The position numbers were made by a program, and so were the translations under genes. The notes under the pieces were generated by a model that was not told where the DNA came from, ran no database searches, and worked only from the letters and a program-made list of their open reading frames with translations. From the NCBI GenBank assembly GCA_021154885.1, contig JAJKHS010000110.1, positions 1 to 34,138 on the forward strand: a stretch of 34,138 nt of DNA. The letters run 5' to 3'. Positions 8,549 to 32,900 of this stretch are shown here, one piece after another; the stretch's first letter is position 1; the number at the start of each line of letters is the position of its first letter. The stretch is from Thermoanaerobaculum sp. (GTDB lineage: Bacteria; Acidobacteriota; Thermoanaerobaculia; Multivoradales; UBA5704).

Positions 8549-9139
8549 ATGGCAAGCTCGACGCTCTGGTCGTGGACCCTCGCCGAATTCCGCGATCGCA
8601 CCGCGGCCGGCACTCCGACGCCGGGCGGCGGGTCGGTGGCATCGGTGTGCGCCACTCTCGGCGCCGGGCTGATCGTCATGGGCCTGGAGGTCACGCGCAA
8701 GGGAGCCGAGGCTGAGCTGGTGGCCGTCCTCGACCCGCTGCTGCGCTCCGGCCGCGAGTTGCTCGAGCGTCTCAGCGCGCACGCGGACCGCGATGTCGCG
8801 GCGTTCAACGAGTACTTGCGCGCCCGGTCCCTGTCGCAGGGGAGCGACGACGAGAAGGCCGTCCGGCGCGAGCGGATGCAGCAGGCGCTCGCCGCGGCCA
8901 CCGAGGCGCCGCTGGCGGCCGGGCGCGACATCGCCGCGGCCCTCGACCTCGCCCGCCAGGTGATGGCGATCTGCAAGTCGCCGGTCCTCGGCGACGCCGC
9001 GGCGGGGATCGACCTCCTGTCCGGAAGCCTCAAGGCCGTCCTGCGCAGCGTCGATGCCAACCTGCCCGGGATCGAGGACCTCGCATTGCGGGCGCGCCTT
9101 GAGGAGGAGCGGGCGGCGCTGGGCGCGATTTCAAGTTGA
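8549..9139 (+). CDS. Cyclodeaminase/cyclohydrolase family protein (FTCD C-terminal-like)
   Basis: A 196-residue, all-helical protein. The N-terminus carries the family pattern LAEFRDRTAAGTPTPGGGSV, found in the formiminotetrahydrofolate cyclodeaminase domain and in bacterial methenyl-THF cyclohydrolases of this fold. The Gly-rich loop after the first helix is the most conserved part. Family members act on folate-bound one-carbon groups; the exact reaction here cannot be assigned. No strong ribosome site precedes the ATG. The gene converges with the DinB-like gene, with only 9 bp between the stops. Confidence 0.8.
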   Translation: MASSTLWSWTLAEFRDRTAAGTPTPGGGSVASVCATLGAGLIVMGLEVTRKGAEAELVAVLDPLLRSGRELLERLSAHADRDVAAFNEYLRARSLSQGSDDEKAVRRERMQQALAAATEAPLAAGRDIAAALDLARQVMAICKSPVLGDAAAGIDLLSGSLKAVLRSVDANLPGIEDLALRARLEEERAALGAISS

Positions 9140-11978: not shown

Positions 11979-14900
11979 CTACGCCGTCCGCCGTTGCTCC
12001 GGCTGCACCTCTTCGAGCTCGACCGACACCAGTTTCGACACGCCCTTCTCTTCCATGGTGACGCCGTAAAGGCGGGAGGCGACTTCCATGGTGAGCTTGT
12101 TGTGGGTGATGACGATGAACTGGGTTCCTCCCGCCATCTCGGAGAGCAGGTCGACGAAGCGGGTGGTGTTGACGTCGTCGAGCGGCGCATCCACCTCGTC
12201 GAGGATGCAGAGGGGCGAGGGCTTGGTGCGGAAGAGGGCGAAGAGCAGGGCGATGGCGGTGAGCGCCTTCTCGCCGCCCGACATCAGCATCAGGTTCTGG
12301 AGGCGCTTGCCGGGCGGACGGGCGAGGATCTCGATGCCGCTCTCCAGGACGTCCTCCTCGTCCAGCAGGCGCATCTCGGCCTCGCCGCCACGGAAGAGGC
12401 GGGCGAAGATCTCGCCGAAGTTCTTGTTGACCTCCTGGAAGGTGGCGTTGAAGCGCTCGCCCGAGGCCTCGTTGATCTCGCGGATGGTGCGCTTCAGGCT
12501 CTCGACCGATGCGGCCACGTCGGCGCGCTGGGTGGTGAGGAACTCGTAGCGCTGCTCCTGCTCGTCGTGCTCCTGGACGGCGAGGATGTTCACCGGTCCC
12601 AGGCGCTCCAGGGCGGCCTTGGTGCGGGCCAGCTCGCCCTCCAGCTCGGCGAGGTCGGCGCGCGGCTCGCCGGGGACCTCGGGCAGTGGAGCCTGGAAGT
12701 CGTCGCGGAAGGTGAGGGCGAGGTGCTCGGCGTCCTGCTTCAGGCTCGCCTGCTGGACGCGCAGCTCCTCGATCTCGCCGCGCACGGCGTCGCGCCGCTC
12801 GCGGTGGCCGGCGATGTTCTCTTCCAGCAGCCGGATCTCCTGGCGGTGCAGGTCGAGACGCTCCTGCTCTTCGAGCACGCCCTCCTCGGCCGCGGCCTTG
12901 TGCTCCAGGGCGGCCTGCAATTCGTCCTGGGCCCGCGCCAGGGCGCTCTCCAGGTCGCCGCGCCGGCCAATGAGCTTCTCGGCCTCTTGGCGCCAGGCGG
13001 CGATCTGGGCGCGCGCGCTCTCGACCTCGGCGCGCAGGCGGCTCATCTCGCGGTCGTGGGATTCGAGGCGCTCGTCGAGCAGCTCCAGCCGGCCGCGGCG
13101 GCCGGCGCTGGCGGTGCGCAGCCCTTCGCGGTGGGCCTTGGCGGCTTCCAGCTCTCCTTGAGCGCGGTCGACATCCTCTTGCAGGCCCAGGCTGCGGGCT
13201 TCGGCGGCGGCGAGCTCTTCCGCGACGAGGCGGCGCTTCTCGGCCACGCGTTCGATCTCGCGGGCGATCTCCTGCTGCTCGGTGGTGAGCGTTTCGCCCT
13301 CGGTCGCGAGGCGGCGGTGGCGGGCGGCGGCGTCCTCCATGCGGGCCTTGCCCACGGCCAGCTCCTGGCGGAGCTGGGCCACCTCGCCCTGAAGCCGGTT
13401 GGACTCGCGGGCCAGCGCGGCGCGCTCGGCCACCAAGCGGTCGAGGAGGGCAGAGGCGTCGCGGAGCTGGTTTTCGAGGTCGGGGACCTGCCGGCCCAGG
13501 GCCGCCAGCTCGCTCTCCCGCTCCAGCACGCCGGGGGTCGCCACCTCGCCTTCGATGTGGAAGGTGCCGGCCTCCACCCAGACGCCGTCGCGGGAGAGGA
13601 AGGCGAGGCCGGGATGGAGCCGGGCCAGCCGCTCGGCGTCGGCGTCGCCGCGCACCAGGAAGGCGGGGGGAAGGGCGGTGGCGAGGTCTTCGGAGAGGCC
13701 GAGGGCCTCGCCCAGGGAGAGGACCACCGCGGGATCGTCCACCACCGGCCAGGTTTCCGGGGTGGTGGACTGGCGCTCGACGAGCACGGCGGCGGAGCGG
13801 CCGGCGAGGGTCCTGGCGAGGTCGCGGGCGCTCTCGCCGGGGTCGAGCACCACGGCGTCGGCGAGGCTCCCGAGGTAAACGTCCAGAGCCCGCTCCCAGC
13901 CTTCGACGGCCTTGGCCTGGCTCGCCAGGTAGACGGGGGAGTCGAGGCCGGTGGCGGCCAGCGCCTTGGCCAGGGCGGCCCGGCGCTGGGCATGGGCGCG
14001 GGAGAGCTCGGCGAGGATGCGCTGGCGCTGGCGGGCGCCCGTGAGCTGATCTTCCAGGGCGCGCTTCTTCTCCGAGGCCTCGGCCTCGCGGCGCATCGTC
14101 TGCTCCAGGGTGGCGGCGACCTTCTCCTGCTCGTCGCTCTTGGCGTCCAGGGCGGCCTCGGTGCCGGCCACCTTGCTGCGCGACATCTCCAGGACCTCGG
14201 CCGCCTGCTTCACCTCGACGGCGTGCTCGGCGATCTCCTGGTCGATGCGGTGGCGGCGGAAGTTCCCCCGCTCCTGCTCGATCTGGGCCTGCTGGAGACG
14301 GTTGCGGGCGGCGTCGATGCCGGCGGCGGCAGCGGCTGTCTGGGCGCGGAAGCCCTCCACCCGCGCCGCCACCTGCTTCAGGTCGCGCTCGGCGGCGGCG
14401 ATCTGGCGCTCGTCCTCGTCCACGGCGGCGGCGGCCTGCCCGCGCTCGGCGGCGAGCTCCCGGCGTTTCTCCTCCAGGCCGTCCAGGGCCTCGGCGTGGG
14501 CCGCGACCTCCGCCTCCCGCCGCTCGGCCAGGGCGCGGTCCTGCGCCGCCCGCTCGCCGATCTCCTGCACCGTCTGGCGATTGGCCTTGAGGAACTCCTG
14601 GCGTCCCTCGATCACGGTCGCCAGCTCCGAGACCTGGCTGTGCCGCGCGGCCATGCGGCGGGCCAAGTCGTCCAGCCGCTCGCGGCCAGCGGCGAGCGAC
14701 GCCTCGTCGCGGTGCAGGTCGGCGGTCAGCGCCGCTTCGCGGGAAGTGGCGTCTTCGAGCGACGAGCGGAGGTGGGCCAGGCGCGCGGCGAGGGCGGCCC
14801 AGCGGCCGAGGAGCACCAGCTCCAGCAGCTCGCGATACTCCTTCTCTTTCTCCTGGTAGCGACGGGCGGCGCTCGCCTGGCGCTTGAGTGAGCGCAGGGC

Positions 14901-15503
14901 GCGCTCCACTTCGGAAATGACGTCGTCGAGGCGCAGCAGGTTCGAGGTCGCCTCCTGGAGCTTGACCTCGGCGATCCCCTTGCGCGCCTTGTAGCGGGTG
15001 ATGCCGGCGGCCTCCTCGATCAGCCGGCGCCGCTCCTGCGGTTTGCCGGAGAGGATCATGCCGATCTTCCCCTGCTCGATGACGGAGTAGGCCCGGATGC
15101 CGAGGCCGGTGTCCATCAGCAGGTCCTTGACGTCCTTGAGGCGGGTGAGCCGGCCGTTGAGCCGGTACTGGCTCTCGCCGCCGCGGAACACCCGGCGGCC
15201 GACGGTGATGCGGCCATCATCCGCGCCCGGCAGGTCGAGGTCGGTGCGCAGGGTGAGGAGGCACTCGGCCATGCCCAGCGGCTTGCGGGAGTCCGAGCCG
15301 TTGAAGATGACGTCCTCCATGGTGCCGCCGCGCAGCGACTTGGCGCTCTGCTCGCCCAGCACCCAGGTGATGGCTTCCGAGAGATTGCTCTTGCCGCAGC
15401 CGTTGGGCCCGACGATGGCGGTGACGCCGCCGGCGAAGTGGACTTCCACGGGATCGACGAAGGATTTGAAACCGGAGATCTCGAGGCGTTCGACCTTTAG
15501 CAT
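11979..15503 (-). CDS. smc: Chromosome segregation ATPase SMC
   Basis: An 1174-residue, full-length SMC protein that forms the ring-shaped condensin that compacts and separates chromosomes. Walker A is GPNGCGKSN (about residues 32-40). A long coiled coil runs to about 500. The hinge lies at about 510-660 (SPVYLASQAKAVEGWERALD, then VYLGSLADAVVL). A second coiled coil follows. The ABC signature MSGGEKAL is at about 1074 and Walker B PLCILDEVDAPLDD at about 1097-1110. The start ATG has AGGGAG just upstream. No scpA or scpB lies beside it. It is flanked on both sides by large palindromes, so it is probably its own transcription unit. Confidence 0.96.
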   Translation of the reverse strand: MLKVERLEISGFKSFVDPVEVHFAGGVTAIVGPNGCGKSNLSEAITWVLGEQSAKSLRGGTMEDVIFNGSDSRKPLGMAECLLTLRTDLDLPGADDGRITVGRRVFRGGESQYRLNGRLTRLKDVKDLLMDTGLGIRAYSVIEQGKIGMILSGKPQERRRLIEEAAGITRYKARKGIAEVKLQEATSNLLRLDDVISEVERALRSLKRQASAARRYQEKEKEYRELLELVLLGRWAALAARLAHLRSSLEDATSREAALTADLHRDEASLAAGRERLDDLARRMAARHSQVSELATVIEGRQEFLKANRQTVQEIGERAAQDRALAERREAEVAAHAEALDGLEEKRRELAAERGQAAAAVDEDERQIAAAERDLKQVAARVEGFRAQTAAAAAGIDAARNRLQQAQIEQERGNFRRHRIDQEIAEHAVEVKQAAEVLEMSRSKVAGTEAALDAKSDEQEKVAATLEQTMRREAEASEKKRALEDQLTGARQRQRILAELSRAHAQRRAALAKALAATGLDSPVYLASQAKAVEGWERALDVYLGSLADAVVLDPGESARDLARTLAGRSAAVLVERQSTTPETWPVVDDPAVVLSLGEALGLSEDLATALPPAFLVRGDADAERLARLHPGLAFLSRDGVWVEAGTFHIEGEVATPGVLERESELAALGRQVPDLENQLRDASALLDRLVAERAALARESNRLQGEVAQLRQELAVGKARMEDAAARHRRLATEGETLTTEQQEIAREIERVAEKRRLVAEELAAAEARSLGLQEDVDRAQGELEAAKAHREGLRTASAGRRGRLELLDERLESHDREMSRLRAEVESARAQIAAWRQEAEKLIGRRGDLESALARAQDELQAALEHKAAAEEGVLEEQERLDLHRQEIRLLEENIAGHRERRDAVRGEIEELRVQQASLKQDAEHLALTFRDDFQAPLPEVPGEPRADLAELEGELARTKAALERLGPVNILAVQEHDEQEQRYEFLTTQRADVAASVESLKRTIREINEASGERFNATFQEVNKNFGEIFARLFRGGEAEMRLLDEEDVLESGIEILARPPGKRLQNLMLMSGGEKALTAIALLFALFRTKPSPLCILDEVDAPLDDVNTTRFVDLLSEMAGGTQFIVITHNKLTMEVASRLYGVTMEEKGVSKLVSVELEEVQPEQRRTA

Positions 15504-15640: not shown

Positions 15641-15797
15641 CCCTCATTACCCCGGCCCTCTTCTCCCGCCCCCTCCCACCCCCCTCACCGGGAGAAGAGG
15701 GAGAAAGACCGATCCGTACCTGGGTCTTCGCTTCTTCTTTCCCCCTCTCCCGGTGAGGGGGGTGGGAGGGGGCGGGAGAGGGGGTAGGGAGTGAGGG
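15641..15797. repeat. Palindromic intergenic element, copy 2
   Basis: A large inverted repeat with a 12-base loop (15711-15722). A 33-base block at 15663-15695 is perfectly complementary to 15746-15778. The outer arms continue as CCCTCA..ACCCC...CCTCT and the inner ends pair as GACC/GGTC. The design and several blocks are the same as at 9678-9812. It occupies most of the gap between the start of smc and the end of the P450 fusion gene. The rest of that gap has no protein-like frame. Confidence 0.85.
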
Positions 15798-15817: not shown

Positions 15818-18800
15818 CTACTTTGCGCACAACCGCTCGATCTCCTCCTTGTACTTCGCCATCACCACTGTCCGCCGCAGCGTTCCGGCCGGGGTGAGCT
15901 CGCCGGCGGCGGCGGTCAGCTCGCCGGGGAACAGGTCCCAGACCTGGATCTTGTCGTGGGGGCTGAGCGTATCGTTGAAGCTCTGGAAGTCGTTCTCGAA
16001 GGGCCTGCGCACCCGCTCGTCGCGCAGCAGCTCTGCGATTGAGGAGTAGTCGATGCCACGGCGCCTGGCCAGCCGGCGCACGGCCGTGAGGTCGGGGAAG
16101 ACGAGGGCGGCGTTGCCCGGGCGGCCCGCTCCCACCACCAGCGCGTGGGCGACGAAGTGGCTGGAGCGCAGGAGGGTCTCGAGAGCGGCTGGCGAGACCG
16201 GCTGGCCCGCCAGGTTGGCGTACAGGTCGCCCGTGCGGCCCTGCACTTTGAGCATCCCCGAGTCGTCGAACGCGCCGGCGTCACCGGTGTGCAGCCAGCC
16301 CTCGCCGTCGACGGCCGGCGGCGGGGTGCCCCGCCGGGCCACGGTCTCGCCTCGCACCAGGATCTCGCCGTCGGGGGCGATGCGGATCTCGACGCCGGGC
16401 AGCGGCGCGCCGGAGGTGCCCGGGCGGACGGCCTGCGGGGTGTTGACGGTTGCGACACCGCAGACCTCGGCCAAGCCGTAGCTCTCATAGACGGGCAGGC
16501 CGGCGGCCCACAGGAAGGTGATCCAGCCGAAGGGGATGCGGTCGCCGCCCGAAAGGGCGAAGCGGAGCCGTCCGCCCAGTTGCTGGCGCACGGTGGAGAA
16601 GATGAAGCGGTCGGCCAGGGCGAGCTTCCAGCCCAGCCGTCCCGGCGGGCGCCGGAGCTGGAGGCGGAACGGCAGCGAGGCGCGGCCGGCCCGGACGGCC
16701 ATCTGAAAGAGTTGGCGCCGGCGGGGAGAGTTCGCCTGCACGAGGTTGAAGAGCCAGTTGAGCAGCCACTTCCAGAGCTCCGGCGTCGAGTTGAAGAGGT
16801 GCGGCCGCACCCGCCGGAGGTCCTCGTAGACCGTGTCGGGCGAGCCGGCGAAGGCGATGGTGGCGCCCCGGTGGAGGCAGACGTAGAGGAGGGAGCGCTC
16901 GGCCGGCCGGGAGAGGGGGAGATAGGAGAAGGCGGTCTCGCCCGGGCGCACCGGCAGGGCCTCGGCGAGGCCGTGGACGGCGGCCGCGAGGTTGCCATGG
17001 GTGAGCTCCACGGCCTTGGGCTCGCCGGCTGTGCCCGGGGTGTAGAGCAGGGTGGCCGGGTCCTCGGGGCGGCGCTGGCGCACCAGCGCGGCGAGGTCCG
17101 GGGAACTGACCGCGCCGCCGGATTCGAGGATGGAGCGCAGGGTGGTCACCCCTTCGCCGGCCGCGTCGCGGCCGTCGAGCTGGAGCCACAGGCGGACGTC
17201 CGGCAGGTCGCCGCGGCGGGGGAGCAGGTCCGCCATGCGGCCGGCGCTCGCCAGGAGGCAGCGGGCGCCGCTGTCGCGTACGAAGCGGATGGCATCATCG
17301 ATGGCGAGGTCGTCCTGGAGGGGGACGGTCACCGCGCCCGCGGCCAGGGCCGCGAGGTCGGCGATCAGCCAATCGGGGCCGTTGCGGGTCAGCAGGGCGG
17401 CCCGCTCGCCGGGGGCGACGCCCAGCGCCGCCAGAGCGGCGGCGAGCCGTCGCGTCCGGCTGAACAGCTCGGCGCGGGAGGCGGCCACGTACTCGCCGTC
17501 CACCTTGAGCAGGCAGGCCGGAGCGGCGGCGGGCCGCTCGTCGAGGAGCAGCTCGGGGAGGGTGGCGAAGGCGCGCGGCGGCGCGGCCGGGCGGGCCGCG
17601 GCGGTGGCTGCGGCAGCTGCGGCGGCGTCCTCCAGGGTCATCGGCAGCCCGTCCTGCGGCTCCAGGGTGATCCCCCGGACGGGCACCACGGCGTGGCCGG
17701 CCACCGCCCGCAGCCGGTAGCGCCGGGCGACGGTGGCGAGGATCAGGGGGAGCTCCATGAGGGCCAGGTCGCGGGCGATGCAGACGCGGGGGCCGCTGCC
17801 GAAGGGGTAGTAGGCGAAACGCGGCCGCTCGCCGCCGCTGCCGGGGGCGAAGCGCTCGGGATCGAAGCGCTCCGGCTGCGGCCAGAGCTCCGGGCGCCGC
17901 TGGGTGACCCAGGGCGAGAGCGTCACCACCGAGCCGGCGGGGATGCGCCAGCCGCCGATCTCGTCGTCCGCCAGCGCGATGCGGCTGATGCCCCAGCTCG
18001 GCGGGTAGAGGCGCAGGGTCTCCTCGATCACCATGCGGGTGTAGACGAGGCTCTGCACGTCCTTGAACTCGGCCGGGCGGTCGCCCACCACGGCGGCGAT
18101 CTCGGCGCGCATCCGCGCGTCGGCTTCGGGGTGGCGGGAGAGCATGTACCAGGTCCAGGTGGCGGCCATGGCCGTGGTCATGTGGCCCATGACGAGCAGC
18201 ATCATGATCTCGTCCAGGAGCTGCTCCGGATTCATCACCTCGCCGGTCTGCTCGTCTTTGGCGGCGAGCATCGCCGACAGCAGGTCGCCGGCCGGCTCGC
18301 CGCTCTGCCGGCGCTCGTCGACGCTGCGCTGCACGGCCCGGCGCAGGTCGCGCAGCGCCTTGAGCAGCCGCAGGTTGCGCGGCGTGGGGACGGCGACGGG
18401 GAGGGTGCGCGGGTCGCGGGCGCGGGCATTGAAGTAGTCGAAGGCCGTGGTCACCGCCCGCCGCAGGCCGTCGCGATCGGCACCCGCGCCGAGCAGGCTC
18501 TCGATCAGCAGCTCGAGGGTGAGGTCGGTCATCTCCCGGGCCACGTCCAGCGGCTCGCCCCGCCGGGCCGGCTCCTGCCAGCGCGCAAGCAGGCGTTCGG
18601 TGCCCGCGACCATGCGGGGGGCGAAGACGGCGAGGCGCTGTTGATTGAACAGCGGCTGCATCACCCGCCGGCGGCGGCGCCAGGCCTCGCCGGACGAGAG
18701 CGCCAGGCTCTTGCCGCCCATGAGGATCTTCTTGCGGACGATCGGCGGATAGCTCGCCTGGTGGTCCAGCAGCACGTGCTTGACGTGATCGGGGTGGCTG

Positions 18801-18991
18801 ATCAGGAACGCCCGGCTGTCCGCGGTCTCGTTGACGCAGAAGATCTCGCCGTGGCGGTGGATGGCGCCGAGGTAGGCGGCGATGAGGTCGGTGCCCGGCG
18901 GCACCGCCAAGCCGCCGCGGGGGCCGGGCACGGTCCCCGTGGACGGGGCCGGGGCTGGAGCGGCTGGATCGGTCAGGGTCTGCGGGCTCAA
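15818..18991 (-). CDS. Cytochrome P450 fused to acyl-adenylating (AMP-ligase-like) domain
   Basis: A 1057-residue fusion. The TTG start has AAGGAG six bases upstream. Residues about 25-455 are a cytochrome P450, with EETLR (ExxR), PERF, and the heme loop PFGSGPRVCIARD with ligand Cys404. The I-helix reads MGHMTTA: Met271 stands where the oxygen-activating Asp/Glu of (A/G)Gx(D/E)TT is expected. After an Ala/Pro linker, residues about 480-1057 resemble long-chain acyl-CoA/AMP ligases (YTPGTAGEPKAVELTHGN, ESYGLAEVCG, GWLHTGD). Here the P-loop Ser is Pro, and the C-terminal catalytic Lys is replaced (LTPAGTLRR, Thr near 1037). Adenylation activity is therefore doubtful. It is cotranscribed with the permease 30 bp upstream and divergent from the NRPS. 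It probably modifies or carries the lipid part, which is inference. Confidence 0.85.
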   Translation of the reverse strand: MSPQTLTDPAAPAPAPSTGTVPGPRGGLAVPPGTDLIAAYLGAIHRHGEIFCVNETADSRAFLISHPDHVKHVLLDHQASYPPIVRKKILMGGKSLALSSGEAWRRRRRVMQPLFNQQRLAVFAPRMVAGTERLLARWQEPARRGEPLDVAREMTDLTLELLIESLLGAGADRDGLRRAVTTAFDYFNARARDPRTLPVAVPTPRNLRLLKALRDLRRAVQRSVDERRQSGEPAGDLLSAMLAAKDEQTGEVMNPEQLLDEIMMLLVMGHMTTAMAATWTWYMLSRHPEADARMRAEIAAVVGDRPAEFKDVQSLVYTRMVIEETLRLYPPSWGISRIALADDEIGGWRIPAGSVVTLSPWVTQRRPELWPQPERFDPERFAPGSGGERPRFAYYPFGSGPRVCIARDLALMELPLILATVARRYRLRAVAGHAVVPVRGITLEPQDGLPMTLEDAAAAAAATAAARPAAPPRAFATLPELLLDERPAAAPACLLKVDGEYVAASRAELFSRTRRLAAALAALGVAPGERAALLTRNGPDWLIADLAALAAGAVTVPLQDDLAIDDAIRFVRDSGARCLLASAGRMADLLPRRGDLPDVRLWLQLDGRDAAGEGVTTLRSILESGGAVSSPDLAALVRQRRPEDPATLLYTPGTAGEPKAVELTHGNLAAAVHGLAEALPVRPGETAFSYLPLSRPAERSLLYVCLHRGATIAFAGSPDTVYEDLRRVRPHLFNSTPELWKWLLNWLFNLVQANSPRRRQLFQMAVRAGRASLPFRLQLRRPPGRLGWKLALADRFIFSTVRQQLGGRLRFALSGGDRIPFGWITFLWAAGLPVYESYGLAEVCGVATVNTPQAVRPGTSGAPLPGVEIRIAPDGEILVRGETVARRGTPPPAVDGEGWLHTGDAGAFDDSGMLKVQGRTGDLYANLAGQPVSPAALETLLRSSHFVAHALVVGAGRPGNAALVFPDLTAVRRLARRRGIDYSSIAELLRDERVRRPFENDFQSFNDTLSPHDKIQVWDLFPGELTAAAGELTPAGTLRRTVVMAKYKEEIERLCAK

Positions 18992-19021
18992 GGCGTTCTC
19001 CTTGCGGTCTTCCGACGGGGC

Positions 19022-21785: not shown

Positions 21786-21857
21786 ATGTCGATCGACGGT
21801 CGAGAAGGATCGCTGGACGAGCCTGGGCAGCCCGCCACCGGGAAGGGGGAGGCATGA
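21786..21857 (+). CDS. 23-codon ORF overlapping NRPS start (ATGA)
   Basis: ATG with GGAGGAAGGG in front (GGAGG seven bases away) opens a 23-residue polar peptide (MSIDGREG ... TGKGEA). Its TGA overlaps the NRPS start codon as ATGA. The frame has no other start between its upstream stop (21678) and this ATG. The excellent ribosome site and the overlap suggest translational coupling to the NRPS. It is too short to be an MbtH-like protein. Without homologues it may also be chance. Confidence 0.4.
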   Translation: MSIDGREGSLDEPGQPATGKGEA

Positions 21858-23960
21858 GCAGCGCGTTGCGCGAGCCGGTGCCCGATCCCTCCCTGATCCG
21901 GGGGATGCGTGAGCGGGCGCTCGAGCATCCCGAGCGGCCGGCCTACACCTTCCTCGCCGACGGCGAGGTCGAGGACGAGCGGCTGACCTTCGGCGAGCTG
22001 GACCGCCGCGCCCGCGCCCTGGGCGCCCTGCTGCAGCAGATGGGCCTGGCGGGGGAGCGGGCGCTGCTGCTCTACCCGCCGGGGCTCGAATTCGTCTCCG
22101 CCTTCCTCGGCTGCCTCTATGGCGGCGTGGTGGCGGTGCCCGCGTACCCACCGCGGTCGCCGCGCATGCTGCCGCGCCTGCGCGCCATCGCCGGCGATGC
22201 CCGTCCCGCCATCACCCTGACCTCGGGAGAGCTGCTCGGCCAGGTCGAGGCGCTCGCCGGCCGGCTGCCGGAGCTCCAGGGCAGCCGCTGGCTGGCGACC
22301 GACTCTCTCGACGTCCCCGGCCGCGACCACCTCGCCGAGCAGTGGCGAGACCCGGAGGCCGACGCCGACACCCTCGCCTTCCTCCAGTACACCTCGGGCT
22401 CGACCGCCAGCCCCAAGGGGGTGATGGTCAGCCACGGCAACCTGCTGCACAACGAGGAGATGATCCGGCAGGCCTTCGGGCAGTCGGAGCGCTCGGTGAT
22501 CGTGAGCTGGCTGCCGCTCTACCACGACATGGGGCTGATCGGCACCGTGCTGCAGCCGCTCTACGTCGGCGCCTCCTGCGTGCTGATGTCGCCGGTCGCC
22601 TTCCTGCAGCGGCCGTCGCGCTGGCTGCGGGCGATCTCGCGCTACCGGGCGACCACCAGCGGCGGGCCGAACTTCGCCTACGAGCTGTGCGCGCGCAAGG
22701 TGCCGGCGGCGGAGCGCCACGGCCTCGACCTCTCCTGCTGGGAGGTGGCCTTCAACGGCGCCGAGCCGGTGCGGCCCGAGACCCTGGACCGCTTCGCCGA
22801 GGCCTTCGCCCCCCACGGTTTCCGCCGCGAGGCCCTCTTTCCGTGCTATGGCCTGGCCGAGGCCACGCTGTTCGTGGCCGGTGGGACGGCCGGCGCGCCG
22901 CCGGTGGTGAGCGCCTTCCGGACGGCCGACCTGGAGGCGGGCCGGGCGTCGGCGGTGGCGGCGTTCGATCCCGCCGGCCGCCGGCTGGTGGGGTGTGGCG
23001 GCGCGTGGGCCGGGCAGCGGCTCGCCATCGTCGACCCCGAGACCGGCCGCCGCTGTCCGCCGGACCGGGTGGGCGAGATCTGGGTCGAGGGCCCGAGTGT
23101 GGCTCAAGGGTACTGGGAACGCCCGGAGGCGACGGCGGAGACGTTCCGCGCCCGCGTTCAGGACGAGCAGGGGGAGGACGAGGATTCCGGCCCCTGGCTG
23201 CGCACCGGCGACCTCGGGTTCCTGCGCCACGATGGAAATCGTGAGGACGGCGAGCTGTTCATCGCCGGCCGCCTCAAAGACCTGATCATCCTGCGCGGCC
23301 GCAACCACTACCCCCAGGACGTCGAGCGCACGGCGGAGGAGAGTCACCCTGCCCTGCGCGTCGACAGCGGCGCGGCCTTTGCCGTGGACATCGCCGGCGA
23401 GGAACGGCTGGTGGTGGTCCAGGAGATGGAGCGCCGGCGCGAGGGGGAGGCGGCGGCCGCCGCCGAGGCGGTGCGCCGGGCGGTGGCCGAGGTCCACGAG
23501 GTGCAGGTCCACGAGGTGGTCCTGGTGCGCATGGGCTCGATCCCCAAGACCTCCAGCGGCAAGATCCAGCGCCACGCCAGCCGGGCCGCCTACCTGGCCG
23601 GCGAGCTGACCGTGGTGGGCCGCAGCGCTCTGGGTGGCGAAACGGAAGAGACGGGCGAAGAGGTCGCCGTCGCGCCCGGGTTGGACCGCGAGGCCGTGCT
23701 GGCCCTGCCGGCGGCGGAGCGGCGGGCGGCCCTGGAGTCGTGGCTGCGGGTGGAGGCCGCGCGCTCCCTGGGCGTCCCGCCCGCGCGGCTGGCGCTCGAC
23801 CGGCCGCTCACCGCCGCGGGCCTCGATTCACTCTCGGCGGTGGAGATCCGGGCGCGGGCCGAGACCGTGCTGGGCGTTTCGCCGTCGCTCGGCGCCCTGC
23901 TGGAAGGAGCCACGCCGGCCGACCTCGTGGCCGAGCTCCTGGCGCAGTTCGCGGCGCCCG
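21854..23960 (+). other. NRPS loading module: FAAL + ACP
   Basis: Residues 1 to about 702. The adenylating domain has QYTSGSTASPKG and SWLPLYHDMGLIG, the forms seen in fatty acyl-AMP ligases that start lipopeptides rather than in amino acid A domains. It ends with KTSSGKIQRHASR (Lys570). The carrier motif is GLDSLSAVEI, Ser659 bearing phosphopantetheine. This form of carrier is ACP-like, not the GGHSL form of the later modules. Confidence 0.9.
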
Positions 23961-26900
23961 CCCTGACATGGCTCCCCGGCGGCGCGGGCGAGCCCGTGGC
24001 GCTGGGTGAGGAGACGGGGGTCTTCTCGCTCTCCCACGGCCAGCGAGCGCTCTGGTTCCTCCACCGCCTGGCTCCCGACAGCCTCGCCTATCACCTGGCC
24101 GGGGCCGCCCGGGTGCATGGCGCGGTCGATGCCGCCGCCCTGGGGCGCGCCGTGGCCGCGCTCGCCGCGCGCCACCCGGCCCTGCGGACCACCTTCGAGG
24201 AGGGGCCGGAGGGACCGGTGCAGCGGGTGCACGCGCGGCTGGCGGTTGATTTCAAGGACAGGAGAGACAGCAGGGACAACAGGGACTTCAGGGACAGCAG
24301 CGGGGAGGTCTGGGGGTCTTTCGACCTCGAAACGGGGCCGCTGATGCGGGTGGGGCTGGTGCAGGATGCTGCGGGCGAGGGGGTGCTGTTCCTGGCGGTC
24401 CACCACATCGTCGCCGACTTCGCGTCGCTAGGGGTGATGGCGCGCGACCTGGGGGCGCTCTATGCCCATGAGGTCGGCCGCCCGGCGCCCGTCCTGCCGC
24501 CGCTTGGCCTGCGCTACACCGACTGGGCGCGCTGGCAGGCGGAGCGGCTGGCCGGCCCCTGGGGCGAGGCGCTCTGGCAGTGGTGGTGGCGGGAGCTGGC
24601 GCCTGCCGGCGGCGAGCCGGCGCGGCTGGACCTGCCCACCGACCGGCCGTGGCCGGCCGTCCAGACCTGGAACGGCGACGCCCGCTCCTGCCGCCTGGAC
24701 GCCGCCGTCGTCGCCGACCTCAACGCCCTCGCCCAGCGCCAGGGGGCGACGCTCTTCATGGCGCTGCTCGCCGCCTTCGAGGCTGTGCTCGCCCGCTACA
24801 CGGGCCAGGACGAGCTGCTGATCGGCTCGCCCACCGCCGGCCGCTCAGCGGCCACCGCCGATCTGGTGGGCTACTTCGTCAATGCCGTGGCGCTGCGCAC
24901 CGACCTCGGCGGCGACCCGGCCTTCACCGCCGTCCTGGCCGAGGTGCGGCGAGCTGTGCTGGGCGCCTTCGAGCACCAGGACCTGCCGTTCGCCCTGTTG
25001 GCCGAACGGCTGCAGCCGCGGCGCGACCCCGGCCGGCCGCCGCTCTTCGACGTCGCCTTCGCCTTCGAGAAGGCCCGCGGCGCAGGCGCCGAGCTGGGCG
25101 GCTTCGCGCTCGGCACGGCCGGCTCGCGGCTGGGGCTGGGCGGCCTGGAGCTCGAGTCGGTCGACCTGCCGCCGGCGGGCTCGCCGTTCGCTCTGGCGCT
25201 GGTCATCGCCGAGGTTGAAAATGGGCTCGGGGCGTCGCTGCGCTTCAATCCGGACCTGTTCGACGCCGCCACCGTCGAGCGGCTGGCAGGCCACTTCACG
25301 ACGCTGCTGACGGCGGCGGTGGCCGCTCCCGGCCGTCGCCTCTCCGCACTGCCGCTGCTCACCGCCGCCGAAGAGCGCGAGGTGCTGGGGGCCTGGAACC
25401 AGACCTCGGCTCCCTACGCCTGGAAGATCCCCGTCCACCGCCTGGTGGAGGAGCGGACGGCGGCGGCACCGGACGACCCGGCCGTGGCCGGCCTGGAGCA
25501 GCGGCTCACCTACCGCGAGCTCGACGAGCGGGCGAACCGGCTGGCGGCCTGGCTGCTGGCCAACGGCCTGACGCCGGAGTGCCGGGTGGGCGTGGTCATG
25601 GAGCGCTCGCCGGAGATGGTGGTGTCGCTGCTCGCCGTGCTCAAGGCCGGGGGCGCCTACGTGCCCCTCGATCCGTCGCACCCGGCGGAGCGGCTGGGCT
25701 GGCAGCTCGCGGACGCCTGGGGAACCGGCCCTGTCCGCCTCCTCCTCACCCAGTCGCGGCTGGCCCCGTCGCTCCCCGAATCGCTCCCCGAGATGGGAGC
25801 GCGGGTGCTGAGCGTGGACCTGGACCCCGGTACGGAAGGCCGCAATCCTGGGATTCCGGTGCTGCCCGAGCAGGCCGCCTATGTCGTCTACACCTCCGGC
25901 TCGACCGGCCGGCCCAAGGGGGTCGTGATCTCCCACGGCGCGCTGGCGAACCTCGTGGCCTGGCACCGGCGCACCTATGCCGTGACGCCGTCCGACCGCG
26001 CCTCGGTGGTGGCGGGGCCCGGCTTCGACGCCTCGGTGTGGGAGATCTGGCCGTACCTGGCGGCGGGCGCGAGCCTGCACGTCCCGCCGGAGGAGGTCCG
26101 CGCCGCGCCGTCCCGCCTCGTGGCCTGGATCGTGGAGCAGGGGATCTCCCTCGCCTTCCTGCCGACGCCGCTGGCCGAGGCTGCCCTGGCCGAGGAGTGG
26201 CCGGCGGGCGCGGACGCAGACATCGCCCTGAGAGCCCTGCTGACGGGCGGCGACCGCCTGCACCGGGGGCCGCGTCCGGGCCTGCCGTTCACGCTCTACA
26301 ACCACTACGGGCCGACCGAGAACACCGTCGTCGCGACCTTTGCCGCGATTGCCCCGGGCGACCCGTCGCCGCCGATCGGCCGGCCCATCGCCAACACCCG
26401 GGCCTACGTCCTCGACCGCCATCTGCGTCCGCTGCCAGTGGGGATTCCGGGCGAGCTGGCGATCGGCGGCGAGAGCCTCGCCCGCGGCTACCTGAACCGG
26501 CCCGAGCTGACGGCCGAGCGGTTCGTCCCCGATCCCTTCGCGGAGGCCCCCGATGCCCGGCTCTATCGGACGGGCGACCTCGTCCGCTGGTCGCCGGCGG
26601 GGGACCTGGAGTTCCTCGGGCGCATCGACCAGCAGGTCAAGGTGCGGGGCGTGCGCATCGAGCTGGGGGAGGTCGAGGCCGTGCTCGGCGAGCATCCGGG
26701 CGTGCGCGAGGTGGTCGTGGTGGCTCGCCAGGAAGCGGGGGAGGCGCGCCTGGCGGCCTACGTCGTCCCTCACGCAGACGCCGATGCGGACCTCCCGGGC
26801 GAGCTGCGCGCGCATCTGCGCGGCCGGCTCCCCGAGGCCATGATCCCCGCGGCCTGGGTGCTCCTGGCGGCCCTGCCGCTGACGGCCAACGGCAAGGTGG

Positions 26901-29900
26901 ACCGGCGGGCGTTGACCGTCTCGGCCGCTCCTGAATTCGCTCCCGCCGAGGAGCGGGTCGCGCCGCGCACGCCCGTCGAGGCGCTGCTGGCGGGGATCTG
27001 GGAAGAGGTGCTGGGCGCGGACGGGATCGGTGTCCACGACGACTTCTTCGCCGCCGGCGGCCACTCGCTGCTGGCGGCCCGCGCCGCGTCGCGGGCGAGC
27101 GCGGCCTTCGGCGTCGAGATCCCCGTCTCCCTGGTCTTCGAGGCTCCGACTCCCGCGGCCCTGGCGGCCGAGGTCGAGGCGCGAACGGCCGCGCCGGTCC
27201 ATCCGGCCGCGCCGCCGCCGCTCGGGCCCGCGCCGGCCGCCGCCTGCGAGCGGGGGCTCCCCCTCTCTTTCGCCCAGGAGCGGCTGTGGTTCCTCGATCA
27301 GCTCGAGCCGGGCGCGGCCACCTACAACATCGCCGGCGGCCTGCGGCTCACGGGGAGCCTCGACGTCCCCGCCCTGGCCCGGGCCCTGGCCGAGGTGGCG
27401 CGCCGGCACGAGGCGCTGCGCTCGCGCTTCGCCGCCGGCGAGGAGGGCCCCGTCCAGTGGGCCCTGCCGGCCGCCGCGCCGGCTCTCCCGGTGGTCGACC
27501 TGCGGCAGGTCGCCGATCTGGAGGACAATCTGGAGGCCGATCTGGAGGACGAGGTGGAGCGGCTGGCCGCCGCCGAGGCGCGGCGCCCGTTCGACCTCGC
27601 GCGCGGACCGCTGCTGCGCACCGTCCTGTTGCGGCTGGGAGCGGCGGAGCACGTCCTGCTCGCCGCCATGCACCACATCGCCTCCGACGGCGGGTCGATG
27701 GCGGTCTTCCTGCGCGAGCTGGCGGCCCTCTACGGGGCCTTCGCGGCGGGGCGGCCGTCGCCCCTGCCGGACCCGCCCCTCCAGTACGGCGACTTCGCCG
27801 CCTGGGAGCGGGGGTGGCTCCAGGGCGAGGCGCTGGAGGCGCGGCTCGCCGCGGCCAGGCGGCGGCTCGCCGGGGCGCCCAGCAGCCTGGAGCTGCCCAC
27901 CGACCGGCCGCGCCCGGCGGTGCTGTCGGCGCGCGGCGCGCGGCAGCCCATCGCCCTGCCGGCCGGTCTGTCCGCGGCCGTGGCCGCCCTCGGCCGGCGG
28001 GAGGGAGCGACGCCGTTCATGGTCCTGCTCGCCGCCCTGGAGACGCTCCTCGGCCGCTACACGGGCGCCGAGGACCTGCTGGTCGGCTCGCCGGTGGCCA
28101 ACCGCGGGCGGGTGGAGCTCGAAGGGCTGATCGGCTGCTTCGTCAACACCCTGGTGCTGCGCGGCGACCTGGCCGGCGACCCGCCGTTCCGCGAGCTGCT
28201 GGCACGGACGCGAGCGGCGGCGCTCGCCGCCTATCCCCACCAGGACCTGCCATTCGAGAAGCTGGTCGAGGCGCTGGTGCCGGAGCGGAGCCTGGCGCGC
28301 CACCCGCTCGTCCAGGTGCTGTTCGTCTTCCAGGGGGCGCCGGCCCGGCCCGCGCTGCCGGGCCTGGCCGCGAGCCGGCTGGAGGTGCACACCGGCACCG
28401 CCAAGCTCGAGCTGACCCTGGAGCTGGAGGAGAGGCCCGCGGGCTTCGCCGGCTGGATCGAGCACAGCCGCGACCTCTTCGAGGCCGCCACCATCCGCCG
28501 CCTGGCCGGCCACTTCGCGACCCTGCTCGCCGGCGCCGTGGCCAACCCCGGCCTGCCCCTCTCCAGCCTCCCCCTGCTCACCGCCGGCGAGCGCGAGCAG
28601 GTGCTGGGCGAGTGGAGCCGGCGGCTGGCGGACTGGCCAGAGGACGGCCTGCTGCACGAGATGGTGGCGGCCCAGGCCCGCCGCACCCCCGGCGCCGTCG
28701 CCCTGATCCACGGCGCGGAGCGGCTGACCTACGGCGAGCTGGCGAACCGCGCGGCGCGCCTCGCCGGCAGGCTGCGGCGCCTCGGGGTGGGGCCCGACGT
28801 GCCGGTGGGGATCTTCCTGCGCCGCACGCCCGGCATGGTGGCGGCGATGCTCGCCGTGCTCCAGGCCGGCGGCGCCTACGTGCCGCTCGATCCCGCCTAC
28901 CCGCAGGAGCGGCTGAGCGCGATCCTGGAGGACTCGGCGGCGCCGGTCCTGGTGAGCGAGCAGAGCCTCGCCGAGCTGCTCCCCCGGGATGCCGCGCAGG
29001 TGCTGCTGGTGGACGCCGAGGACGACGAGGAGGCAGAGGACGGCAAGGACGACAACGCCGCCGGGGAGCCTCCCACGCCCGCGCCGGCGTCGCTCGCCTA
29101 CCTCATCTACACCTCGGGCTCCACGGGGCGGCCCAAGGGGGTCGCCATCGCGCACCGCAGCGCCACCGCCATGGTCCACTGGGCGCGGGAGACCTTCCGG
29201 CCGGAGGAGCTGGCCGGGGTGATGGCCGCCACCTCGATCTGCTTCGACCTCTCGGTGTTCGAGCTCTTCGTCCCTCTCGCCGTGGGCGGCGCCGTCATCC
29301 TGGCGGAGAACGCCCTGGAGCTGCCCCGGCTGCCGGCCGCCGCGGAGGTGACGCTGGTCAACACCGTGCCCTCGGCCATGGCCGAGCTGGTGCGGCAGGG
29401 CGCGGTGCCCGCCTCGGTGCGCACGATCAACCTCGCCGGCGAGCCGCTGCGCGGCGTTCTCGCCCGGCGCATCCACGGCCTCGGCACCGTCCGGCGCCTG
29501 CTCAACCTCTACGGCCCGTCGGAGGACACGACCTACTCGACGGTCGCCGAGGTGGGGACGGCGGGCGAGCCGACCATCGGCCGGCCGCTCCCCAACACCC
29601 GGGCCTACGTGGTGGACGCCCATCTCGAGCCCCTGCCGGTGGGCGTCCCCGGCGAGCTGCTGCTGGCCGGGCGGGGACTCGCCCGCGGTTATCTCGGCCG
29701 GCCGGAGCTGACGGCCGAGCGCTTCGTCCCCGATCCGTTTGCCGGCGAGCCGGAGCCGGGGGCGCGCCTCTACCGCACGGGCGATCTCGCCCGCTGGACG
29801 CCGGATGGGGAGCTGGAATTCCTGGGCCGCCTCGATCACCAGGTCAAGGTGCGGGGCTTCCGCGTCGAGCTGGGGGAGATCGAGGCGGCGCTGCACGCCC

Positions 29901-32900
29901 ATCCGGCGGTGCGCGAGACGGTGGTGGTGGCGCGGGAGAACGAGGAGGCGGCAGCCGAGGCCCGCGACCTGCGGCTGGTGGCCTACGTGGTGGCGCGCGA
30001 GCCGGAGGCCTTCCCCGCCTTCCCGGCCGAGCTGCGCCGGCATCTGCGGGCGAAGCTCCCCGACCACATGGTGCCCGCCGCCTGGGTCGCCCTGCCCTTC
30101 CTGCCGCTGACGCCCAACGGCAAGGTGGACCGCAGGGCGCTGCCGGTGCCGGCGGAGCTGGCGACGCCGGCGACGGCGGACGGCCGGACGGCGCCGCGTA
30201 CCCCCGAGGAGGAGCTGCTGGCCGGCATCTGGCAGACCCTGCTGGGCGTCGGCGAGGTCGGCGCCTTCGACAACTTCTTCGAGCTCGGCGGCCACTCTCT
30301 GCTGGCCACCCAGGTGGTGTCGCGGGCGGGCCGCGCCTTCGGCGTCGAGCTGCCGTTGCGCGCCCTGTTCGAGGCGCCCACCCTGGCCGGGCTGGCGGCC
30401 CGGCTGGCGGCGGCCCGCGGCGAGGGTCTCCTGCGCAGCGCGCCGCCAACGCCGCGCCCCCCGGGTGGGGAAGGGGATGCCGGGTTGCCCCTCTCCTTCG
30501 CCCAGGAGCGGCTCTGGTTCCTCGACCGTCTGGAGCCGGGGAGCACCGCCTACAACGTCCCGGCCGCGGTGCGGATCGAGGCCGGACCGGCGGGGCGGCT
30601 CGATCCGGCGGCCCTGGCCGCGGCCTTGGGCGAGGTCGTCCGCCGGCACGAGGCCCTGCGCACCGTCTTCCCCGAGCGGAGCAGCCGGCCGGTGCAGCGG
30701 ATCGATGCCCCGGCCGCGGTGCCGCTGCCGCTCGTCGACCTCGAGGGCCTGCCGCGGCTGGAGCGCGAGGCGGAGGCTCGCAGGCTGGCCGACGAGGAGG
30801 CTTCGAGCCCGTTCGACCTGGTGCGCGGACCGCTGCTGCGCGCCCGGCTGCTGCGCCTCGAGGCGTCGCGCCACCACCTGCTGCTCAACCTCCACCACAT
30901 CGTCTTCGACGGCGGCTCGATCGACATCTTCCTCGACGAGCTGTCGCAGCTCTACCGCGCCTTCGCGGCGGGCGAGCCCTCGCCGCTGCCGGCGCCCTCG
31001 CTGCAGTACGCCGACGTGGCGCTCTGGCAGCGGGCGAGCTTCCAGGGCCAGCTTCTGGCGCAGCAGCTCTCCTACTGGCGGCAGCGGCTGGGCGACAACC
31101 CCCCGCCGATCGACCTTCCCACCGATCACCCCCGGCCTCTCCAGCAGAGCTTCCGCGGCGCCGTCGAGCGCCTGAGCGTCCCTGCCGCCCTCGCCGCGAG
31201 GCTGAAGCGGCTGGGCCGGGAGGAGGGTGCCACCTTCTTCATGACCCTCCTTGCGGCCTGGAGCGTCCTGCTCGCCCGGCTCGCGGGACAGCAGGAGGTG
31301 CTGGTGGGGACGCCGGTCTCCAGCCGCTCCCTGCCGGAGCTGGAGGGGGTGATCGGGTTCCTGGTCAACACCCTGGTGCTGCGGGCCGACCTCTCCGCCG
31401 ACCCCACCTTCCGCGAAGCCCTCGGACGGCTGCGCGACCGGTCCCTCGAGGCCTACGCCCATCAGGACCTCCCCTATGAGCAGTTGGTCAAGGAGCTGGC
31501 GCCCGCGCGCGACCTCGCTCGCAATCCGCTCTTCCAGGTCTTCTTCAGCTTCCAGGGAGTCTTCCGGCGTGAGCTGGCCCTGGGGCCGGACCTGAGCGCC
31601 CGGGTGGCGCCGGTGTTCCCCGCCACGGGCAAGTTCGACCTCTCCCTGGCGCTGGAGGCGGCCGCCGATGGCGGCCTGGAGGGCTATCTCGTCTACCGCT
31701 CCGACCTCTTCGACGCGGCGACGGTCCAGCGCTGGGGGCGGCACCTCGGCGTGCTGCTCGCGGCCATCGCGGAGCGTCCCGAGGCGCGGGTCGCCGGCCT
31801 GCCGCTGGCCACCGCCGCCGAGCGGCACCAGTTGCAGCACGAATGGAGTGGGGGCTGGCGCGAGGCCCATCCGGCCCAGGACGGGCCCCGCCTGCACGAG
31901 CTCGTGGCGGCGCGGGCCGCGGCGGCGCCGGACGCGCCGGCCGTGGTCTGCGACGGCGAGGAGCTGACCTACGGCCGCCTCGACCGGCGCGCCAACGGCC
32001 TGGCGCTGCGGCTGCGGGCCCTGGGCGTCGGCCCCGAGGTGAGGGTCGCCCTGCTGCTCGACCGTTCGCTCGCGGCGGTGGTGGCGATGCTGGGTGTGCT
32101 CAAGGCGGGAGGCGCCTGGGTGTCCGTCGATCCCGCCCTGCCGGCGGAGCGGGTGGCCTGGCTGCTGGCGGATTCGGGGGCGCCCGTGGCGGTGACCTCC
32201 GCGGCCCTCGCCGGCGGCCTGCCGGCCGGGGTGCGCACCGTGCTCGTCGAGGAGGCCGGGGAGAGCGTGGCGCGCCCGAAGGGCGGCGTCGGGCCGGACC
32301 ACCCGGCCTACGTCCTCTACACCTCGGGCTCCACGGGCCAGCCCAAGGGGGTGGTGGTGCGCCACGGCGCGGTGACGAACCTGGCCGGCGCCCTGCGGGC
32401 GGCGGTCTACGGCGCCGCAGCGGGGCCGCTACGGGTGGGGGTCAACGCCTCGTTCTCCTTCGACGGCGCGGTCAAGCAGGTCGTGCAGCTCGCCTGGGGG
32501 CACTGTCTCCACGTCCTCACCACCGAGGTCCGGCAGGATCCCCGGGCCCTGGTCGACTACGTCCGCCGCCATCGCCTCGACGTGCTCGACTGCACGCCCT
32601 CGCAGCTCCGGCTGCTGCTCGCGGACGGCCTGGGCGAGGGGGACGCCGCGCCGGCGCTGGTGCTGGTGGGCGGCGAAGCCGTGGACGCCGCGCTGCGCGA
32701 CGCGGCGCTGGCGCGGCCGCGGACCCGCTTCTGGAACGTCTATGGACCCACCGAGTGCACCGTGGACGCCACGGCCGCGCCGCTGGTCGCCGGCGTGCCG
32801 GCGGCGCGCATCGGCGGGCCGCTGGCCGGGGTCGCGCTCTACGTCACCGATTCCGAGGGGGGCCTCGTGCCGCTCGGCGTCCCGGGTGAGCTGTGCATCG

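Follow-up and report, generated by a model that had tools for sequence, protein, structure and literature searches.

A cytochrome P450 fused to a degenerate acyl-CoA-synthetase-type domain near a lipopeptide synthetase in Thermoanaerobaculum sp.: a candidate docking partner or a decaying fusion

Why should a cytochrome P450 be joined to an acyl-activating fold? The question is raised by a contig of 34,138 nucleotides from Thermoanaerobaculum sp. (JAJKHS010000110.1; hereafter the window, which is the entire contig C110 of an 8.2-Mb genome in 161 contigs), where one gene encodes a P450 followed by a domain of the long-chain acyl-CoA synthetase type, near a non-ribosomal peptide synthetase (NRPS) that starts with a fatty acyl-AMP ligase (FAAL) (Table 1). 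Assembly-line P450s must pick one carrier- or lipid-bound substrate among many, a problem to which contacts with carrier proteins and the X-domain are the solutions known. A preliminary description of this DNA proposed that the substrate is held as an acyl-adenylate or acyl ester during oxidation, perhaps of the lipid tail, an interpretation that our analysis supports in part. The best-supported reading of the sequence, which we advance tentatively, is a tailoring P450 carrying a non-catalytic, ligase-derived domain that would bind an acyl substrate or carrier, or serve in docking.

The fusion itself, a 1057-residue frame joining a P450 (heme Cys404) to an acyl-ligase-family domain, is real. 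Its codon-position GC (0.745/0.527/0.946) matches that of the neighbouring SMC (0.776/0.444/0.936), permease (0.745/0.492/0.944) and NRPS (0.802/0.525/0.943) genes, which confirms 15818-18991 as a true gene and not a shadow frame; two overlapping frames, of 1814 residues on the plus strand and 708 on the minus strand, have the rotated codon-position GC typical of shadow frames, and a Pfam scan of the longer one gave no match. GC at third codon positions (GC3) lies between 0.92 and 0.98 in all ten 100-codon blocks covering codons 1-1000, the P450/ligase junction included. This evenness, the single frame and the ribosome site speak against split genes or an assembly error, and an in-frame assembly chimera with so even a codon signal is unlikely. 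Because the stop-to-stop frame has only 1067 codons, 10 more than the 1057 counted from the TTG at position 18991, no start much further upstream is possible. Maintenance of the gene can be argued from its uniformly high GC3 and intact 1057-codon frame. All three Pfam matches of the protein (p450, AMP-binding and AMP-binding_C_3) exceed their cut-offs, and the whole region of long-chain acyl-CoA-synthetase type spans residues 497-1054.

The ligase half was compared with 28 homologues: 19 from the organism's own order (2 of these from its own genome), 2 from one other genome of the class, 4 from a set of Pseudomonadota and 3 from the genomes of loci L011-L013. Ligase matches shorter than 520 residues, P450 matches shorter than 350 residues, the window itself (L001), a second copy of the own-genome paralogue L002 (L071) and identical sequences were excluded before columns were counted. 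Forty-four columns are invariant in the 28 homologues, and the window domain keeps 33 and loses 11 of them (homologue residue first: Y559Q, S652P, T655A, G660A, H695R, V736T, R738E, V860S, G887R, Y888G and K921G). When the homologues are left out one at a time, each proves to lose between 0 and 5 columns; the worst case, L030, loses 5 of 49 at a mean identity of 0.36, the same as that of the window domain, and three homologues are about equally divergent (0.35-0.36). The changes S652P, T655A and G660A all fall in the P-loop (A3), which reads YTPGTAGEPKA in the window and YTSGTTGxPKG in 28/28 homologues; a 5-residue gap lies in the GYxxxP region, and the A5 Ser/Thr of all 28 homologues is replaced by Ala841. 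At the A10 position, 25 of the 28 have lysine and the remaining 3 carry it two residues upstream, which is why this position stands outside the 44-column count; the window has Thr1037 there, Ala1035 two residues upstream, and no lysine within residues 1015-1045. The upstream arrangement, LTPKxS for LTPTxK, is a natural A10 variant of acyl-CoA synthetases seen in L006, L064 and L068. Intact comparators exist in the same window: the A10 motif is present at 4/4 sites in the FAAL and NRPS A domains, and the P-loop reads YTSGSTGxPKG in the three NRPS A domains; that of the FAAL departs from this pattern and reads YTSGSTASPKG.

Class I adenylating enzymes are described as having a fully conserved A10 lysine, together with an invariant Asp, Arg and Glu and a P-loop tied to the adenylation step (PMC6122825); acetylation of this lysine is stated to block adenylylation (PMC4053389), and it is likewise described in NRPS domains (PMC8150014). 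Because the A10 lysine, three P-loop residues and other invariant columns are lost, acyl-adenylate formation by the ligase half is unlikely, and the proposal of a substrate held as acyl-adenylate during oxidation is not upheld. Binding is another matter: a K523A mutant of an ANL-family ligase has been crystallised with acid and AMP (6ijb, by title), which makes binding without the A10 lysine plausible. If the fusion is decaying, the domain carries a caution for annotation, as Pfam labels it an AMP-binding enzyme despite the loss of the catalytic lysine and much of the P-loop.

Part of the active site is kept, namely Glu842 (A5), Asp904 (A7), Arg919 (A8) and the P-loop Lys659, which by motif position would be nucleotide- or Mg-site residues. 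Their retention would suit a ligase that is still catalytic in altered form, either performing only the thioester half-reaction on a partner's acyl-AMP, possibly that of the neighbouring FAAL, or relying on another residue, with the P450 oxidising the activated acyl group in line with the preliminary description. The nearby FAAL is consistent with such a scheme, as is the description of the A10 lysine as working in the adenylation conformation and swinging out in the thioester conformation (PMC6122825, PMC4053389). The P-loop changes, H695R, K921G, the gap in the GYxxxP region and the lysine-free stretch around A10 all argue against it, and we consider altered catalysis improbable. A FAAL, moreover, normally hands its acyl-AMP on to a carrier protein of its own.

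It is the ligase half that bears most of the losses, since the P450 half keeps 13 of the 14 columns that are invariant among 18 P450 homologues, the one loss being G406A. Heme Cys404 lies in FGSGPRVCIA, with the FxxGxxxC pattern intact, and the K-helix ExxR is present (E324-T-L-R327). The I-helix reads MGHMTTAM, in which Thr272 is retained and the acid position is Met271, as against Glu or Asp in 17 of the 18 homologues. This acid-alcohol pair is usual in P450 oxygenases and not strictly defining, and an altered pair is compatible with activity, for example in the CYP152 peroxygenases (where the replacement is a different one); Met271 is no proof of inactivity, because P450s with an altered pair can stay active. 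The best PDB sequence matches are 7wzl and, closest, 3dbg, which we take to be CYP170A1, and the best NCBIfam match, a partial one, is albaflavenone monooxygenase, well below that model's own cut-off. No flavin or iron-sulphur reductase domain of the kind found in self-sufficient P450s appears among the Pfam matches of the fusion protein, which comprise P450 and ANL domains only.

Each half has recognisable relatives. With bacterial P450s (3dbg, 7wzl and the standalone L038, 48% identity) the protein shares the P450 profile, ExxR and the Cys motif, whereas none of the nearest standalone P450s examined has a ligase domain beside it, and the window protein adds both the ligase and Met271. These nearest P450s are 41-48% identical (L038-L043, from a search around the Parafrankia locus L009, and L033, from one around the proteobacterial record L010), and the own-genome P450 paralogues 37-41%. 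The closest ligases are about 40% identical, among them the paralogue L002 (40%). Its setting is one of beta-oxidation: the adjoining gene encodes 3-hydroxyacyl-CoA dehydrogenase and enoyl-CoA hydratase domains. With L002 and other long-chain acyl-CoA synthetases of FadD11/FadD15 type, the ligase half shares the profile match and the AMP-binding_C_3 end, but it differs from them in its missing A10 lysine, its degenerate P-loop and its attachment to a P450. FadD11 CoA ligase is its best NCBIfam match (NF038343, E 1e-77, well below that model's own cut-off), and no FAAL model is found in the best 25 of 102 NCBIfam matches. In the ligase tree it forms the longest branch (1.35), poorly placed (support 0.745). 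On these comparisons, two separate families were brought together, with fast divergence of the ligase half before or after joining.

An AlphaFold model of the fusion protein (pLDDT 70.3, pTM 0.52, from a 10-row alignment) resembles ligase structures in the PDB, MenE 5bus (TMt 0.77) among them; its best 50 PDB structure matches are ANL-type in every case, by title, and P450s were matched in the viral library. Under the docking reading, a former long-chain acyl-CoA synthetase would have become the covalent C-terminal partner of a P450 and would probably no longer make acyl-adenylates, its fold predicted by the model to persist while the ATP-phosphate loop is altered and the catalytic lysine gone. 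This pseudo-ligase would bind an acyl chain, or an acyl-carrier or lipopeptide partner, and present the cargo to the heme domain, with electrons coming from separate redox proteins. The likeliest substrate would be the product of the neighbouring FAAL-NRPS, most simply its fatty tail, and the likeliest exporter the adjacent permease.

A covalently joined second domain is shared with the natural P450 fusions described in PMC5919972, which include CYP102/BM3 with a reductase and PpoA/CYP6001-type and CYP5619 proteins with a dioxygenase/peroxidase, lipid-oxidising cases among them; the partner in the window is instead of the acyl-ligase family, with no reductase or peroxidase. A looser analogy is offered by the X-domain of glycopeptide NRPSs, a domain of condensation type that is described as catalytically inactive and as bringing P450s to substrates bound on a carrier (PMC5238595): the fused domain may similarly act as a P450 recruiter, although the X-domain has a condensation fold and belongs to the NRPS, and the fold attached to the P450 here is of ANL type. 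Among the matches listed in a literature search, titles and abstract openings did not describe a P450-acyl-ligase fusion, nor did the search find pseudo-ligase recruitment of P450s in lipopeptide biosynthesis; fusions of P450s with acyl-CoA dehydrogenases, which presumably exist as CYP221, were not found in it either. That the window protein represents a new form of lipopeptide P450 recruitment, in which a built-in pseudo-ligase captures the lipid tail or an acyl-carrier intermediate for the attached P450, is a possibility we hold with some doubt. If true, an adenylation-stripped ligase fold on a P450 would be a further answer to the problem of substrate choice and a usable design part for lipid-tail oxidation.

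It is gene order that points to a lipid tail. The permease and the fusion gene lie on the same strand, 30 nt apart, and apparently form an operon; ADOP permeases are typical of Acidobacteria. The preliminary description placed the fusion beside the FAAL-started NRPS, and the NRPS is indeed real and near, with the domain order FAAL-PCP-C-A-PCP-C-A-PCP-C-A-PCP-C (read from sequence and motif positions), but it is not the immediate neighbour, as the ADOP permease lies between them.

We examined the upstream side (about 4 to 17 kb of flank) of 20 of the 38 other FAAL matches. They comprise the 8 remaining matches of the own genome, 7 of the 11 in G003, 2 of the 3 in G009, 3 of the 6 in G007 and none of those in G001, G002 and G010; for 18 of them the open frame has at least 1,800 residues. 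An ADOP permease match (34-42% identity) is present in 7 of these flanks, and in 5 (L120, L121, L126, L129 and L135) the distance from this ADOP-like permease to the FAAL gene is at most 400 bp, so that a FAAL start with an adjacent permease is shared with other loci of the order, whereas a P450 or fusion is found in none of the 20 (tblastn, E <= 1e-10, 19 P450 queries). L121 (own genome, C31, 872-7005) repeats the divergent FAAL/ADOP-like permease layout and has a flavin oxidoreductase gene, not a P450, 35 nt behind the permease; in L120, also of the own genome, the next same-strand gene to match a Pfam model follows after about 1.7 kb and encodes an ABC transporter. The permease link is therefore recurrent, an oxidoreductase behind the permease has one parallel and one non-parallel, and a P450 is no regular companion. 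At E <= 1e-100 there are 9 FAAL-type matches in the own genome (G000) and 11 in G003, many in frames of thousands of residues, and the lineage of these two genomes is apparently lipopeptide-rich.

With 9 FAAL-type matches in one genome, proximity to a FAAL is not rare, and the fusion could be a lipid-metabolism enzyme unrelated to the NRPS, placed near it by chance and using its P450 to oxidise a lipid such as a free fatty acid. The beta-oxidation setting of the nearest intact ligase paralogue and the P450-free flanks are consistent with this; the 30-nt spacing to a permease of the kind that adjoins FAAL-type genes argues against it, and we regard a chance association as unlikely.

The fusion was not found elsewhere in the sets searched, which is not to call it unique. 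Queried with the full protein, about 1,040 distinct genomes other than the own one gave no listed match that spans both halves; they were drawn from overlapping sets of 97 relatives, 395 genomes of the phylum, 147 of the class, and 5, 297 and 296 others. Candidates scored per genome numbered 8 for the 97 relatives, 2 for the phylum, 5 for the class and 2 for each of the sets of 297 and 296; the result for the 97 relatives holds among the matches listed, sorted by E-value, and among the matches extending beyond the domain boundary a few, such as G053:C33, G085:C19 and G037:C222, were left out of the check. PLSDB contains 484 matching plasmid records, none of which covers 80% of the query at a single place; one scan of IMG/VR viral contigs with the fusion query gave no relative, and one scan of genome contigs gave five loci, all with P450-side matches. 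Possible fusions suggested by frames longer than 900 residues or by matches running past the domain boundary (L026, L063-L069 and L070-L072) included no locus with both domains; L033 and L038-L043 have only P450 matches within loci of about 4 kb, the open reading frames of L039 and L040 stop after the P450 domain, and at L009, where the match seemed to cross the junction, the gene after the P450 is aminotransferase-like and lies on the opposite strand (read from sequence). The expectation that the same fusion would stand beside FAAL-NRPS genes in several genomes failed within the sets searched, and the two outcomes named as telling against the idea did not occur either: no fusion remote from an NRPS was found in the genomes searched, and stretches of about 5-11 kb upstream of SMC in seven relatives (G002, G003, G007, G009, G011, G005 and G004; G001, with a contig of 3372 bases, stands outside this comparison) contain no split or whole P450-ligase gene, the fusion, the ADOP permease and FAAL all being unmatched there. 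At the place of the fusion gene, the same-genus G002 encodes a row of proteins, three or more, that resemble one another by eye, have about 410 residues each and are apparently secreted (L056, 1177-5119).

Decay is the main and serious rival to the docking reading: a duplicated acyl-CoA synthetase would have become fused with a P450 and would now be drifting in its active site, leaving the ligase half, and perhaps the whole protein, with no selected role. Such drift would account for losses in motifs of the P-loop, A4, A5, A6, A8 and A10 types, for the longest branch in the ligase tree and for Met271 in the P450, and it fits a fusion with no second example in the genomes searched and nothing to match it in the stretches upstream of SMC in seven relatives, the same-genus G002 among them. 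The intact frame, good ribosome site and GC3 argue against decay, as do the 13/14 and 33/44 invariant columns kept in the two halves and the predicted ligase fold, yet all of these would remain if decay were recent. We judge decay somewhat unlikely. Several points nonetheless weigh against the docking reading. Decay explains the same ligase losses; the P450 may be impaired as well, given Met271 for the acid and Ala406 for an invariant Gly; and because no orthologue was found, purifying selection on the ligase half is not measurable. The structure model is of only moderate quality and silent on any interdomain channel. SMC abuts the fusion gene, which puts the cluster edge here and makes cluster membership depend on the 30-nt permease gap, and the permease lacks a close orthologue among 12 relatives (best identity 47%; a match at 1e-150 in 7 of 13 genomes, the own included). 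The P450-free flanks of the other FAAL-type genes count on the same side.

Table 1. Features of the window around the P450-ligase fusion gene.
Feature	Position	Strand	Evidence or remark
P450-ligase fusion gene	15818..18991	-	1057 aa, TTG start, one intact frame
AAGGAG, Shine-Dalgarno-like	18998..19003	-	6 nt 5' of fusion-gene TTG (sequence read)
Cytochrome P450 domain, residues 47-430	17702..18853	-	Pfam p450 PF00067, E 2.9e-73, 247.7 bits
Ala/Pro-rich linker, about residues 455-496	17504..17629	-	sequence; model confidence mostly low
AMP-binding domain, acyl-CoA-synthetase-type, residues 497-886	16334..17503	-	PF00501, E 6.2e-60, 203.4 bits
Degenerate P-loop YTPGTAGEPKAV at residue 650	within AMP-binding domain 16334..17503	-	alignment
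AMP-binding_C_3 (PF23562), residues 928-1054	15830..16210	-	E 2.1e-9, 38.2 bits; Thr1037 replaces A10 lysine
ADOP-family duplicated permease, 820 aa	19022..21484	-	NCBIfam 904 bits, cut-off 622; upstream of fusion gene
FAAL-started NRPS	21854..34138	+	divergent from permease; 4095 residues to contig end, open there
SMC chromosome-segregation gene, housekeeping boundary	11979..15503	-	downstream of fusion gene
52-nt inverted repeat, 87% complementary, rich in C/G runs	15657..15784		between fusion gene and SMC

The inverted repeat between the fusion gene and SMC could be a terminator, or else a repeat element of small size. Elsewhere in the window, a gene of formiminotransferase-cyclodeaminase type (PF04961) lies at positions 8549-9139.

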